A stretch of 64,000 nucleotides of DNA from Owenia fusiformis (taxonomy: Eukaryota > Annelida > Polychaeta > Sabellida > Oweniidae). The position numbers were made by a program, and so were the translations under genes. The stretch is from positions 10,668,348-10,732,347 of the forward strand of contig CAIIXF020000006.1 of NCBI GenBank assembly GCA_903813345.2, written 5' to 3'. The notes beneath the pieces were generated by a model that had not been told where the DNA came from, made no database searches, and was given only the letters and a program-made list of their open reading frames with translations. Every line of letters starts with the position of its first letter. Position 1 is the stretch's first letter. Of the stretch, positions 13,401 through 19,400 are shown piece by piece.

Positions 13401-16400
13401 GTTTTCATTTTGGAATCATAATATGGACCACAGATCAGGTACATATTATATAAAGCAATAAATACCTCCCTTCAGTCGATTGGAGTACAGAAAACATTTG
13501 TGCCTATAGCCCTGTGGTATATACAATATACATTGTATTCATTGCTATACCTGCTCTTTGGTCTATATTTCTTATATCAAACATGTACAATTGCCATCAT
13601 TTAATAAATGTGAAAAGTGTTATTTTTACAAATGATATTGATTCAAGGATATTAGTTAAGTCAACGCTTTAGAGTAGATCCAATAAAAGTATTGTTGATT
13701 TTTGAATGATTGACTCAATACATGCATATGCTAGTATGTATGACATATTTGTTTGAGAGGTTCCTAGTCACATTAGGGGAGGCTTCAAAAGTTCAATGTC
13801 TGATAGGAAACTAAATAAATCTAGTTTCATCCTTGACCACCAATATAAGGAAATAAAATAACCTTAAAAATATCAAATGAAATTAATTACTTCAAAAATT
13901 TACTTGCAAAATATGAAGGACTGCATCTGATGTTTAAATGTTGATTTAACTCCAGGTGAAGAAAAACCTATTTACAATGATGGACACATGTTTCATAAAG
14001 CGTGAACCCCTTGGAGTGGCCCTGATCCTAGGGGCATGGAACTACCCCATACAACTCACCCTCTGTCCCCTAGTGGGAGCAATAGCAGCAGGTAAGTGAC
14101 CCCGATCCTGGGGATGTGGGTCCCTAGGATGCGGATAAATCACACATGACATTTCATCTGTCCTTTGCTTTACTGTTGATATATTGCATGTGTCATAGCT
14201 AAGAAGTTGCATGAACACAGTATATTGAATATTAACCCTAGAAACACAAGAACTTGTTGTAACAACAAAATTAAATGGGCTTTCCTCTCTACCCTTAAAG
14301 AGGTACAAGACAATGGTACATCTATATATGGACACTATGTTAATACAAAGCTATACAAGATTTAATTAAATGTACATCTTCCAGGTAACTGTGTGCTCCT
14401 TAAGCCATCAGAGGTTTCAATGAACACAGCTTTGCTACTGGAGAAGTTACTGCCCAAGTACCTTGATAATGTAAGTGAAAAGAAAACAATATTTAATCAT
14501 TTTAAATGTAGTGTTTCTCACTCTTTCATTGACTAAGAATCCATCACATGATGATGAATTTACTTTCATCTAAATCTAGCTAGCCCATAACCCCCCTGGC
14601 CAAAAAAATCTTTCAAAATCATGCAGTTTTTCACCATTCTGTGCATTTTTAAATGATTTTGGCCATTTTTGGACCAAAATTGTCACAAGCGAACTCCCAC
14701 CTGGAATTTTTCAAAAAGTGAGCCCCCCTTGGCAAATCCTGGCTACGGGCCTGTCTAGTCTTGTCTTACATGGTATGAAATCCCCAAACTATAAAAAAGT
14801 ATAAGAGGTCTGAAGCATGAGGATTAATGCAGATTCACGTATCTAATAGTTTTAAGGTGAGCACTTTAGAATGGTTTTGCCATATTACACAGATTGTATT
14901 ACTTTTCCTCCAATCAAGGATTGCCTTAAAGTTATCAATGGAGGAATACCAGAGACCACTGCCCTACTGAATGAGCGCTATGACTACATATTCTACACAG
15001 GGAACACCAACGTGGGCAAGATTGTGTACCAAGCTGCTGCTAAGCACCTTACACCAGTGACACTAGAGTTAGGCGGCAAAAGGTAAATAGAAATCGTATG
15101 TATTAGAATTTAGAGACATAACTGAATTAAGAAACTTGCGCATTTAGTAGTACATAGAGGCTGATGTAATAAAAACATGTTGAACGTTAAAACTTTATAT
15201 ATCTGAACATTTACCAGTACATGAACAGTACATAAGCTATTCAGTAGACTTTGCTTTTTAGTTTTATAGAATAATTGAGAAGACATGATCTTTGTTAACA
15301 TTGTGTATTTTTACTCCACTTGTGTCTTTCATATAACTTAGATTGGTCTTTTATGGAATATGGGCTATTTTATCTTTTTCTGTTATACTTGTGTTTTTTG
15401 GATTGTTGGAGAACAATGCTGTTAGCTATTATGTTTTAGCCCTTGTTATATTGACAAGGAAACAGACTTGGATGTGGCATCTAATCGACTTGCTTGGGGA
15501 AAATGGGCAAATGCTGGTCAGACTTGTATTGCCCCAGATTATGTCCTAGTCAGGCCAGAGTTGCAGGTAACCCACAAAAGATGGTGCCACCTCACCACCT
15601 GCAGTTGATAAGGTTTCATGTAATGTTGCTTGGTGAAAAAGTGCAAAGCATGCTCCCTGGTTTAAATAGTGCAAACCATAATCCTTGGCTGAGGGGCTCT
15701 CAACCCATACACCCATCCTAAATAATTGCTCTTAAATCACATTCATCAGGTACAGATACTGTACAGAATACCATTCAAATATAAGGGCCCTTTTATTAAA
15801 AGTTGAATACTACTTTAGCTTTACTCTTGTTTTCTGTTTTGTTTGTATTTTGTAATTGGTGTTATAGTTTTCCCCCATATTTAACAGTTTTAGAATAATT
15901 CATGTAACCTAGAGTATACACAGACATGTACAGGGTGTCCCAAAATTATACAGAGATAAAAACAGAATTACTCTGAGTAATGTAGGAATATTCTTGCAAT
16001 TTGAACATCTGATAGACAATTTTATTATCATAATCATAATCATCTAAAAGTTTCACTAGCTAACTCTATCTAGTGTTAGAGAAAAGCTTGTTTTGGTACC
16101 ACCACCCATATTTCATGAAGGAGGTAATTTTAAGTGCAAGTCATCTAAGATGTCAAATTTCTCAAGAAGTAATGCATTTTCTATGGAGTTCTATCTGCAA
16201 ATTGATGAATTAATTTTCCTTATCCTTCAATGAAGGAAAAATAGTCTCATTGGGGTATGTTTTTGGGACACCCTGTACATTTATTACCTTTATTTAGTTT
16301 GATATTACACCTTATGTTCTTAAATCATCATTCATCCTCCAAGGATACAACCTTTATCATTCTTCAATGATAGAACCCTTTATCTTCCTTAAAGAATACA

Positions 16401-19400
16401 TTTTTTATCATTCTCGAAGGATACATTCTATAATTCCCCAGGGATACAAACTTTATATCCTCTATAGCTAAGGATACAAACTTTATCATTCTGAAATGAT
16501 AAAACTATCTTCCACCATCATCCTTCATGGATACACATTTTGTAATTCTACCAGGAAACAACTTTTATCTCAAAGAAGAAAATAAAGAGGAATACTATAT
16601 TTGAAATAGAGTCCAGAATTGATCTTTAAGGAAATCTATATCTATCCATATATAGGTTGTTTTGAAGGTGATTTTCCAGCAATCAATGTAGTTGGATTTC
16701 TTGTTGTCAAGAAAGCCATGTTTCAGCTGTCTATGTTTTTTTTAGTTATAGGTAAAATGTTTGATCTTTACTTAATGCGGCTCTTTGACATGATCAGCAG
16801 TTTTATCCTATGCCAAGTAGAGTTTTAGGGAGATAAGTTGGTAAGATTATATCCCGTATCCTGATTTTGAAGTTTCCATCTAGAACCTCCCGCCATATCT
16901 CCCGCTTCGGTGCATATCTTCCCGCTTCGGTGCATATCTTCCCGCTTCCGGTACTTTTAGTGAAAACTCTACTTGGTATAGGATAAAGCAGTTATGTACG
17001 GTCGGTTTGGATATTGGGTTCATCCCTCGTGAGATATGCACATCTACCTTCAGTCCCGACGGTCCCTCAGGTAGACATGCATATCTCCCTCTGGATAAAC
17101 CCCATATCCAAAACCTCCCAGTACATAACCCTTATGTATTTTAGCCTCATGTTTCAACATTTCAGGTTTTGTACCTTAAAGTGCAATATTTAGTCTGCAG
17201 CTGAGTTTGTCAATGTCTGTTATATTTCAGCCCTTGTTATGTAGATTCAAGTGATCTCTTCAGGCTAACAGAGACAGCTAATGGTATAGCATGGGGCAAA
17301 TGGATGATTGTCTGTCAGACTGCACCTGATTATATCAAGTGTTCTGTAGGCATACAGGTACCATCCATACAAACTTTACAACGATCCTTTATTTCAGTCC
17401 TGTCTTCATAGACAACAATGTAAACCTTGATGTAGCAGCAAATCGTCTTGCGTGGGGAAAGTTTGCAAATGTAGGCCAAACGTGCACGGCCCCTGACTAT
17501 GTTATGTGCCATCCCGATATGCAGGTTTGTATAATATACACAGATAAGAATCCTAATATATGCATGGTGAATACTCATACTTAAAAGTGTGAAAAATATG
17601 GTTAGAAAGGGAACATTTAAAGAACTACTGGCCATAAAAACAACCCCAAGGATACACTCCTCTAACATACAAAGAAATAGTTTTAATACATCATCACAAG
17701 ATTATTTTGATATACACATGTACATGTATTATCACAATCTAAACCCACAAGAAAATGGGACACAATTGATGATTTGCGATCACCGGATGGATCCTATCTT
17801 GAAGTGATGTCACAAGTAGACCACACTGCTGTGCTTTTTGATTTTGAGTGATTATTTCCTGTATTTTGTACTTTATTGATTTATTTTTCATGAAAGTATT
17901 CGATTTGATTAGATCAACATTCATTCTAAGCCCATGCCAAGTTTAAAATCTTACTGACATGATTTAGATAGTGGTTAAACACCCCCGATTTTGAAAAAAA
18001 TTGGGGCGCTCATAGGCATCGATTTTTAGTATGAATTTCACCATACTTCACACATATAAGGATATACTCATGATCAAGTCAAATCGATAGAAGTTAGAAA
18101 TCTGGCCCATAGTTTGCATAAACTGCCACGTGTTCACCTTTTCGTCTCTCCATCATGTCTAAATCATTTTATATGACGTCATTCCAATAAGATGAAATAC
18201 ATGACAACAGTATTCATGAACACACTTCAATTCTGATCGCAAAAGGTCAATTCTTTTGAACAATACATGCTGAAGAAAAATTGAAAAAAGAATACTGATA
18301 CCCTTACTTCAAAAATAGAGAAATTAGCAAAGTAGGAAGGTGCAGAGTAAGAAAAAGAGAATGATTGTTGGATTTATGTCAAAAATAGTATGTATCTTAC
18401 TGTGTATGTGTGGGGTGGGTATGACATAGCTCTAGTAGTGCCTTATCACAACTACGTTAACACCTTGGACTTTTTTTTATTCAAAATGTAACTACAGTAA
18501 AACCTGTGTATTGGAAACAAAATTGTTCAAAAATTATTCCTTAAAAGACAGGTATTCCATATAGAGATTTCAAATACTTCCATATAGAGATTCATGCACC
18601 CAGGTGTTCCATACCAAGAGGGGATCTGTCAGACAGGTTTTACTGTAAATGTTTCCTAGTGCCATCTGTTAAGATAGATTTACATATTACATTTTGGTGC
18701 ATGCAAATTGCCATTTATTTCTACTCGTAGTACTCTAGTAACATGTACTGTACTTCATATTGTAGTTTGTTCATGGGCATTCTAGTGACTTTATTTATAT
18801 CTCACTTTTAGATGCTTTAGCTTATACAGGGTGGTCAAAAAAACGGAAACCCTGTATTTTCCTCACATCTTTGTCATTTTAAGAAATTACTCCCTGATAT
18901 TTCACACATTTGTAAATCATTCAATGTCCTACCACCCTACCATATTTCACGACCATCAGACTGATAGTCACAATTTAACAGCACTTTGAACAGCATGCTT
19001 CAGGTTTGGCCATCATCACGCTGGAGGCAAACCTGCACAGTTGTCAATGATCCAAATGCATTCCTCAGCAGGTATGGCCTGAATGATACAAATGATCTCA
19101 CTTTTGAGGTCTGCAATTGTCCTGTGGTCATTATTATACACTCTATCTCTGCCATATCCCCATAGGTAGGGACACTTTGCACAACATATGCAGGTTGGTC
19201 TTCAGCTCAATAGTGGCCACTGGGAATGCTCTTTAAAGTGCTGTAACACGGTGACTATCACTCAGATGGTCATGAAATATGGTAGGCTGGTAGGAAATTG
19301 AGTGATGTACAATTGTGCAAAGTTATTTCTTAAAATAAGATAAGATATAAGGAAAATGGTGTAGGGGTTTCCAGTTTTTTTACCACCCTGTATTACACAT

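Follow-up and report, generated by a model that had tools for sequence, protein, structure and literature searches.

The window analysed here, meaning the whole 64-kb stretch of DNA, holds on its + strand a gene, probably of animal origin, that by sequence is nearest to fatty aldehyde dehydrogenase (ALDH3A2-like), an aldehyde-detoxifying enzyme. Spliced through exon 7a, its predicted protein resembled ALDH3 structures over the full length, with FALDH 4qgk as the best match (query residues 4-456, 1.2e-165) and class 3 ALDH 1ad3 as the second (4.6e-162). Our gene model covers E2 to E13 (Table 1), short of the first coding exon. At the other end, E13 encodes a hydrophobic stretch of 18 residues, recognised by inspection, that may correspond to the tail of membrane-anchored ALDH3A2-type FALDH. 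Among the 25 of 43 NCBIfam matches listed, all were bacterial ALDH families that scored under their cut-offs. Four further ORFs of the window gave nothing in Pfam at E ≤ 0.1.

Table 1. Features of the ALDH3 gene, in window positions.
Feature	Position	Strand	Description
E2	9394-9537	+	
E3	10468-10563	+	
E4	13956-14091	+	
E5	14385-14470	+	
Exon 6, constitutive	14919-15082	+	LELGGK motif; ends in phase 2, leaving AG of a Ser codon
Exon 7a	15440-15566	+	127 nt, 43 residues; canonical ALDH3 catalytic-Cys segment
Exon 7b	17231-17357	+	127 nt, 43 residues; 6-nt insertion and 6-nt deletion compared with 7a/7c; lacks the catalytic Cys and the adjacent residue
Gap, 7b donor to 7c acceptor	17358-17397	+	40 nt
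Exon 7c	17398-17524	+	127 nt, 43 residues; catalytic Cys kept; Thr where 30/30 homologs have Ile/Val
Exon 8, constitutive	20145-20248	+	Starts in phase 0
E9	20565-20697	+	
E10	21500-21570	+	
E11	22128-22243	+	
E12	23533-23662	+	
E13	from 24167; stop codon ends at 24341	+	Hydrophobic C-terminal tail

Between exons 6 and 8 lie three tandem copies of exon 7. The preliminary description had placed them there from the letters alone, and its coordinates proved exact to the base, with AG and GT flanking each copy. Every copy starts in phase 2. As the description had also noted, each completes the Ser codon left by exon 6 (in detail, AG+C in 7a and 7b, AG+T in 7c) and ends in phase 0. Its further claim, that an mRNA can take up only one copy without a frameshift, was borne out when all eight combinations (three single copies, none, three pairs and all three) were spliced in silico: only three of the eight stayed open to the terminal stop, and these were exactly the single-exon ones. 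Skipping exon 7 altogether brought a stop 19 nt past the start of the exon-7 block, and including two or three copies brought one after 148-157 nt.

The likeness among the copies is far above chance as judged by tblastn within the window (E ~2e-18 for 7a-7c and ~3e-7 for 7a-7b, composition statistics off). At the residue level, 7a and 7c are identical at 28/43 positions, and 7b matches each of them at 19/41. A search of the 498-Mb genome with exon 7a (E ≤ 0.001) found two places, both at this locus; searches with exons 7b and 7c (E ≤ 1) each found the same three places, again all at this locus. Within the window no convincing fourth copy was seen, the next matches having E ≥ 0.14. A contig scan for relatives gave two loci, both bacterial, and a search of the assembly for mitochondrial COX1 gave no match.

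Since mis-assembly can yield tandem copies, an assembly error or collapsed tandem genes had to be weighed, and we regard this as exceedingly improbable. The DNA identity among the copies is 55-66%, far beyond what allelic or assembly duplication would leave, and each of the remaining exons had one strong match when the window was searched by tblastn (E ≤ 1). Genome-wide, 13 of the 15 matches to the spliced protein fell at this locus and the other two were weak, making this gene the sole ALDH3 locus found in the assembly. With single strong matches for the other exons and a genome search that yielded no further ALDH3 locus, we rejected both an assembly artefact and a whole-gene duplication. The same window search also picked up minisatellite copies of the start of exon 11 and one weak match at 2884.

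We compared the three copies with 30 prokaryotic homologs. These were retained from 32 fetched loci after removal of one whose contig stretch was the same as that of another (L001, L013) and one partial locus (L002); they are the best matches listed from a search with a match in 143 of 195 genomes, and are thus biased to close homologs. Both 7a and 7c read NxGQTCxAPDY, and the catalytic Cys (Cys243 of ALDH3A1), which sits in the GQTC motif, is present in both and absent in 7b. Of the 11 columns invariant among the homologs, all are kept in 7a and in 7c and eight in 7b; among the 18 columns conserved at 90% or above, 7a and 7c keep 15 each and 7b 12. Mean identity to the homologs is 0.51 for 7a, the nearest, 0.48 for 7c and 0.37 for 7b. 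Divergence between 7a and 7c is mostly silent, with dN 0.28, a saturated dS of ~3 and identities of 0.77, 0.81 and 0.40 at the three codon positions. Because it retains every invariant residue and differs from 7a mainly at silent sites, 7c looks like a true second active-site exon.

Codon models point the same way for 7c; they assume that the mutation clock is equal in all copies, and they draw on 41-43 codons whose synonymous sites are saturated. Neutral evolution of 7c was rejected in all nine alignment-by-topology settings (2dlnL 17.6-32.9), which reuse one set of sequences and cannot count as independent. For two of the three topologies in one run the time parameter reached its upper bound, which leaves the omega values approximate. 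When the clock was dropped, neutrality of 7c cost only 0.8 log units relative to a single omega for all copies (lnL -429.69 vs -428.86) and a neutral 7a cost 1.4 (-430.30 vs -428.86), while a neutral 7b fitted as well as the free model (-426.90 vs -426.76); the clock-free model is uninformative because synonymous sites are saturated. These results bear on the idea that 7a alone is used and that 7b and 7c persist as silent relics of an old exon duplication. That idea would fit the position of 7a as the copy nearest to the homologs and the failure of the clock-free model to reject a neutral 7c. We nevertheless consider it very unlikely, given the strong rejection of a neutral 7c under a clock and the fact that 7c has kept all the invariant residues although its synonymous differences from 7a are saturated.

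Exon 7b presents a different picture. The preliminary description had placed all three copies on the catalytic-cysteine segment; in 7b the sequence differs where 7a and 7c share their motif, and a 6-nt deletion takes out the Cys. In all, 7b lacks a Cys, an Asn and a Gly that are invariant in 30/30 homologs. Searched alone against Pfam, the exon had no Aldedh match at E ≤ 1. The whole protein containing it is still recognised as Aldedh (E 8.4e-76), its remainder being unchanged. The missing Cys and the missing Pfam match suggest a dead or dying variant and not a third working active site. For 7a and 7c, anatomy, frame, residues and substitution pattern fit the mutually exclusive layout proposed for the catalytic-cysteine segment; the proposal falls short for 7b, where the catalytic Cys is absent.

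It is a serious possibility, somewhat short of an even chance, that the cassette is only two-way, 7a against 7c, and that 7b is a pseudo-exon: a decaying copy that is used rarely if at all, or that serves only as a decoy splice site next to 7c. Such decay would be consistent with the loss of the three invariant residues, with the absence of a Pfam match for the exon alone, with the fit of the clock-free model to neutrality and with an omega estimate above that of 7a and 7c in 9/9 settings, significantly so in 4/9 (2dlnL 9.5-11.0). Set against it are the features that 7b retains, namely an open frame, all four splice letters and the exact 127-nt length, its two in-frame indels cancelling each other. 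The chance that a neutral 7b would show no stop and intact splice letters is ~0.03-0.06 at 0.39 substitutions/site, with indels uncounted (0.12-0.20 at 0.2/site and 0.004-0.008 at 0.8/site). Together, frame, splice letters and length argue moderately against neutral decay. The equal-clock codon model also rejected omega = 1 for 7b in 9/9 settings (2dlnL 6.65-17.2), a rejection that depends on a common mutation clock for all copies. Whether 7b gives a used, catalytically dead isoform or is an exon being lost is the least certain point of our explanation.

The spacing of 7b and 7c offers a physical reason for their exclusion. Apart from the 7c acceptor itself, there is no AG within 17358-17397, so the branch point of 7c should fall in those 40 nt. 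One branch-like adenosine (TTTAC) is found there, 20 nt 5' of exon 7c and ~20 nt from the 7b donor. The available text of two reports puts the donor-to-branch threshold at ~50 nt (PMC5740500; PMC7969005), and by that measure the gap would not accommodate a functional intron. The 11 introns along the E2-E13 path through 7a are at least 293 nt long, and 30 introns estimated in other genes of the genome are at least ~114 nt. The latter were taken from neighbouring pairs that qualified among 52 of 60 PF00118 match rows and 7 of 16 PF00171 rows; their lengths are estimates from profile positions with splice sites unchecked, and the sample is biased against very short introns, which can be read through within one match. 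The eight PF00118 rows dropped were long and single-exon-like, stop-containing, overlapping or lone, and some of the rows kept also contained stops. Because the gap is so much shorter than introns elsewhere, joining of 7b to 7c is probably blocked sterically. Exon 7a lies 1664 nt from 7b, and a steric block cannot explain its exclusion from the other copies. A scan for yUnAy within 60 nt of the acceptors had no match for 7a or 7b, so it was not discriminating. Upstream of 7a there is an AG at 16 nt. Read by eye, the donor letters included no U12-type site.

Exclusivity could instead be imposed by competing RNA structures, with docking and selector sequences as described for insect Dscam (available text of PMC6071210), in place of steric hindrance and frame. 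Among 60 intron pairs tested with 20 shuffles each, five had z < -3. In the lowest (z -4.8), the partners were the last intron's 3' end and the region following 7c; tile 18845-19244 gave pairings with sequence upstream of both 7b (z -3.3) and 7a (z -2.1). None of the tiles, however, was conspicuous for every variant exon, and tile 18845-19244 overlaps a long inverted repeat resembling a transposon. The scan was exploratory, shuffling one side in 60 tests over five selector regions, and with one genome there is no covariation to draw on. Across these pairs in this genome, we saw no convincing docking site common to all exon-7 copies, and we judge an RNA-structure mechanism improbable.

In the available text of two accounts (PMC3228551, PMC5740500), mutually exclusive exon clusters are characterised as neighbouring internal exons of similar length, in the same frame, homologous and unable to be included jointly, whether through splice-site incompatibility, a short donor-branch distance or a frameshift; each mature mRNA takes exactly one of them, and the cluster is conserved among related species. 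The exon-7 copies show similar length, compatible phases, homology and reasons for joint inclusion to fail: a frameshift with an early stop for the pairs, the triple and the skip, and the 40-nt gap for 7b-7c. We consider it likely that the sole ALDH3 gene found carries a mutually exclusive cassette, a grading that applies to the 7a/7c core and overlaps with the pseudo-exon reading, which differs only on 7b. Most likely, the cassette consists of two active versions and one that is catalytically dead or dying. We infer that one of 7a, 7b and 7c would be joined between exons 6 and 8. Use of 7a or 7c would give two enzymes with the same catalytic Cys in differing active-site surroundings, which may differ in substrate use; a subunit made with 7b would lack the catalytic Cys. 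Wrong combinations other than 7b-7c would lead to a frameshift, an early stop and, presumably, removal by nonsense-mediated decay. If transcribed, this would be an ALDH in which splicing exchanges the segment bearing the nucleophile: one version has Thr beside the catalytic Cys, another has no Cys. Such an enzyme would provide a natural test of how the surroundings of the catalytic Cys set substrate choice in fatty-aldehyde oxidation, and a single splice cluster that keeps 7b and 7c apart sterically and 7a apart from both by frameshift.

Metabolic enzymes with mutually exclusive exon pairs include PKM and ketohexokinase, where both of the two copies are catalytically competent. The cassette described here probably belongs to an established class of splicing switch, as in ACSL6 and OGDH. 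ACSL6 and ACSL1, human long-chain acyl-CoA synthetases, are likewise enzymes of lipid metabolism, and in them the choice between two mutually exclusive exons replaces a short conserved motif of the active site; their fatty-acid gate-domain exons exist in two copies, both with the gate motif (Phe/Tyr), and the available text describes no version lacking a catalytic nucleophile, whereas here there are three copies, one without the catalytic Cys (PMC1543647). Exons 4a and 4b of OGDH, also a dehydrogenase, arose by an ancient exon duplication and are kept exclusive by branch points within ~50 nt of the upstream donor; as far as the available text goes, they alter Ca2+ sensitivity and not a catalytic residue, and the intron between them measures 118-131 nt in mammals and birds, compared with the 40 nt seen in this gene (PMC7969005). 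In U2AF1, inclusion of both or neither of the duplicated exons Ab and 3 leads to stop codons and nonsense-mediated decay. U2AF1 differs in being a splicing factor with two copies, and the accessible portion of the report has branch-point and polypyrimidine-tract organisation contributing to the choice (PMC5224494). The literature matches listed, which came from a search that most subscription papers fell outside, included none on mutually exclusive exon use in an ALDH.

A stronger version of the proposal, which we think rather unlikely, is that 7b encodes a maintained and regulated Cys-less ALDH3 subunit that folds and dimerises, with splicing setting the ratio of active enzyme (7a, 7c) to pseudoenzyme. 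Choice of 7b would then tune or poison the dimer, or free the protein for a binding role. Vertebrates have several ALDH3 genes; one cassette in an apparently single-ALDH3 animal could supply a several-gene repertoire together with a pseudoenzyme. ALDH16 is likewise an ALDH without the catalytic Cys, described in the available text as a separate gene, whereas here the Cys-less form would come from exon choice within one gene (PMC8160307).

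Twelve coding exons (E2-E13, 9394-24341), assembled from exon matches and splice sites with the first coding exon not systematically sought, form an ALDH3 gene encoding a 493-aa protein with a hydrophobic E13-encoded tail, as judged by inspection. The window covers positions 10668348-10732347 of its contig. The gene has introns of hundreds of bases, as in eukaryotes. The best solved relative of the spliced protein is the fatty aldehyde dehydrogenase 4qgk (E-value of 1.2e-165), followed by the class 3 ALDH 1ad3; both are mammalian entries, which suggests that the gene comes from an animal. 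COX1 had no match in the assembly. Searching the whole genome (498 Mb, 525 contigs) with this protein returned 15 matches, 13 at the ALDH3 locus and two weak ones elsewhere. This is the one ALDH3 gene found genome-wide, where a missing match does not prove the absence of others. The Aldedh family, with 12 of 214 candidates scored, gave at least 16 matches, some of them on several other contigs.

Between exons 6 and 8 lie three versions of exon 7, which the preliminary description presented as same-phase copies of 127 nt. Their lengths, their phases (2 at the start, 0 at the end) and their AG/GT borders all bear this out. In-silico splicing of the eight possible combinations also agreed with the proposal that an intact frame allows one copy per mRNA, as only the three single-exon combinations remained open. 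Skipping the block led to a stop 19 nt in, while including two or three copies led to a stop 148-157 nt in. Triple inclusion adds 381 nt, a multiple of three, yet the second copy falls in the wrong frame and runs into a stop. The duplications look old, since the copies have little sequence in common outside the exons; the sole similarity reported spans the 7a and 7b acceptors.

Coordinates of exon 7 versions and of similar or repeated sequences in and around them
Feature	Position	Identity or copies	Location
Exon 7a	15440-15566		between exons 6 and 8
Exon 7b	17231-17357		between exons 6 and 8
Exon 7c	17398-17524		between exons 6 and 8
Flank similarity 7a/7b	15426-15454 and 17217-17245	83%, 29 nt	
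Inverted-repeat pairs	15926-16280, 16802-16987, 17006-17112, 18824-19393		introns flanking 7a-7b and 7c-8
162-bp tandem repeat	12233-12916	4.2 copies, 95% matches	intron between exons 3 and 4
41-bp tandem repeat	21785-22154	9.1 copies, 92% matches	

The copies were compared over 43 codons per exon with saturated synonymous sites, using homologs from prokaryotes and PDB entries only. Exon 7c looks like a genuine coding exon, and the probable reading of 7a and 7c as working alternatives is carried by residue retention and the codon-position pattern. Both 7a and 7c keep all 11 columns that are invariant in 30 prokaryotic ALDH3 homologs and 15 of the 18 with conservation of 90% or more. They differ from each other at 60% of third codon positions but at only 19-23% of the other two (dN 0.28; dS about 3, saturated). 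A codon model with an equal mutation clock rejected neutral evolution of 7c in all nine settings (2dlnL 17.6-32.9), which combine three alignments and three topologies of the same sequences and are not independent. We prefer this version because tandem exons within one gene should have a common mutation rate, although for two of the three topologies its time parameter ran to the top of the allowed range. The clock-free model cannot decide on the neutrality of 7c: compared to one omega (the dN/dS-type parameter) for all, neutral 7c costs 0.8 log units and neutral 7a 1.4. Immediately after the catalytic Cys, 7c has Thr, where all 30 homologs have Ile or Val and three PDB sequences Val or Ile. 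As this position adjoins the nucleophile, altered substrate handling is plausible.

Exon 7b differs from the other two by six extra nucleotides near its start and by six missing at the active site, the latter removing the catalytic Cys and its neighbour. The idea that all three versions carry the catalytic-cysteine segment thus stands for 7a and 7c and fails for 7b. In addition, the Gly of GQTC is replaced by Cys and an Asn by Ile, and 7b keeps only 8 of the 11 invariant columns and 12 of the 18 conserved ones. With exon 7 starting at residue 214 of 1ad3, the lost Cys aligns to Cys243 of ALDH3A1, described in PMC8160307 as the catalytic residue. Lacking it, an isoform that uses 7b should not be able to carry out the normal reaction, unless the nearby new Cys can substitute.

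Is 7b then junk? Its open frame, exact length, complete splice letters and two in-frame indels that cancel argue against this. Neutral simulation retained the open frame and splice letters at a frequency of about 0.03-0.06 for a branch of 0.39 substitutions per site, as estimated by the neutral fit without the clock. The frequency was 0.12-0.20 for a branch of 0.2 substitutions per site and 0.004-0.008 for one of 0.8. With the clock, omega = 1 was rejected for 7b (2dlnL 7.1-10.4 in the main alignment, 6.65-17.2 over all). Conversely, neutral 7b fits equally well without the clock, and its omega of about 0.10-0.17 exceeds the 0.03-0.04 of 7a and 7c in the main alignment. This excess recurs in all nine settings but is significant in four, none of which uses the core-only alignment. 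We read 7b as an exon probably constrained for much of its history. In this reading, either the constraint has relaxed recently or is still relaxing, or the exon has adapted to a role that needs no catalysis.

The 7b donor and 7c acceptor are 40 nt apart. Given the lengths of the other introns and the published limit between donor and branch point, these two exons very likely exclude each other by steric hindrance. All 11 introns on the E2-E13 path through 7a measure at least 293 nt. Estimates for 30 introns from this genome's chaperonin genes and other ALDH genes are about 114 nt or longer, in a sample biased against very short introns. The donor-to-branch-point limit lies near 50 nt according to PMC5740500 and PMC7969005. 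The gap contains no AG save the acceptor itself and a single branch-like TTTAC about 20 nt from either end, which is weak evidence, as no such motif lies within 60 nt for 7a or 7b. Exon 7a is 1664 nt from 7b, so its exclusivity towards 7b and 7c would have to rest on regulation and on decay of frameshifted mRNAs. PMC5224494 likewise describes exclusivity through such decay for U2AF1. Of 60 intron pairs screened for docking/selector pairing, five fell below z = -3, but no docking site was shared by all the variant exons. A tile that paired upstream of 7a as well as 7b sits in a transposon-like inverted repeat.

Mutually exclusive exons are already known in metabolic enzymes, including ketohexokinase and PKM. 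Further cases are the ACSL6 gate exons (PMC1543647) and OGDH exons 4a/4b (PMC7969005). A literature search of titles, covering part of the literature, found none on an ALDH gene with such a cassette. The Cys-less alternative is the unusual feature here, and would be new for this kind of cassette only if use of 7b were demonstrated.

Repeats occur in several introns of the gene. The inverted-repeat pairs look like short DNA-transposon (MITE-like) insertions; one example has ACAGGGTGTCCCAAAA ends that are 92% complementary and 303 nt apart. The 41-bp tandem unit contains the 3' acceptor of exon 11 together with that exon's first codons (EKPLAMYV), and the last copy of the unit is the actual exon 11 start (22128). 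This places a row of near-identical acceptors before exon 11, of which only every third would keep the frame because 41 mod 3 = 2.
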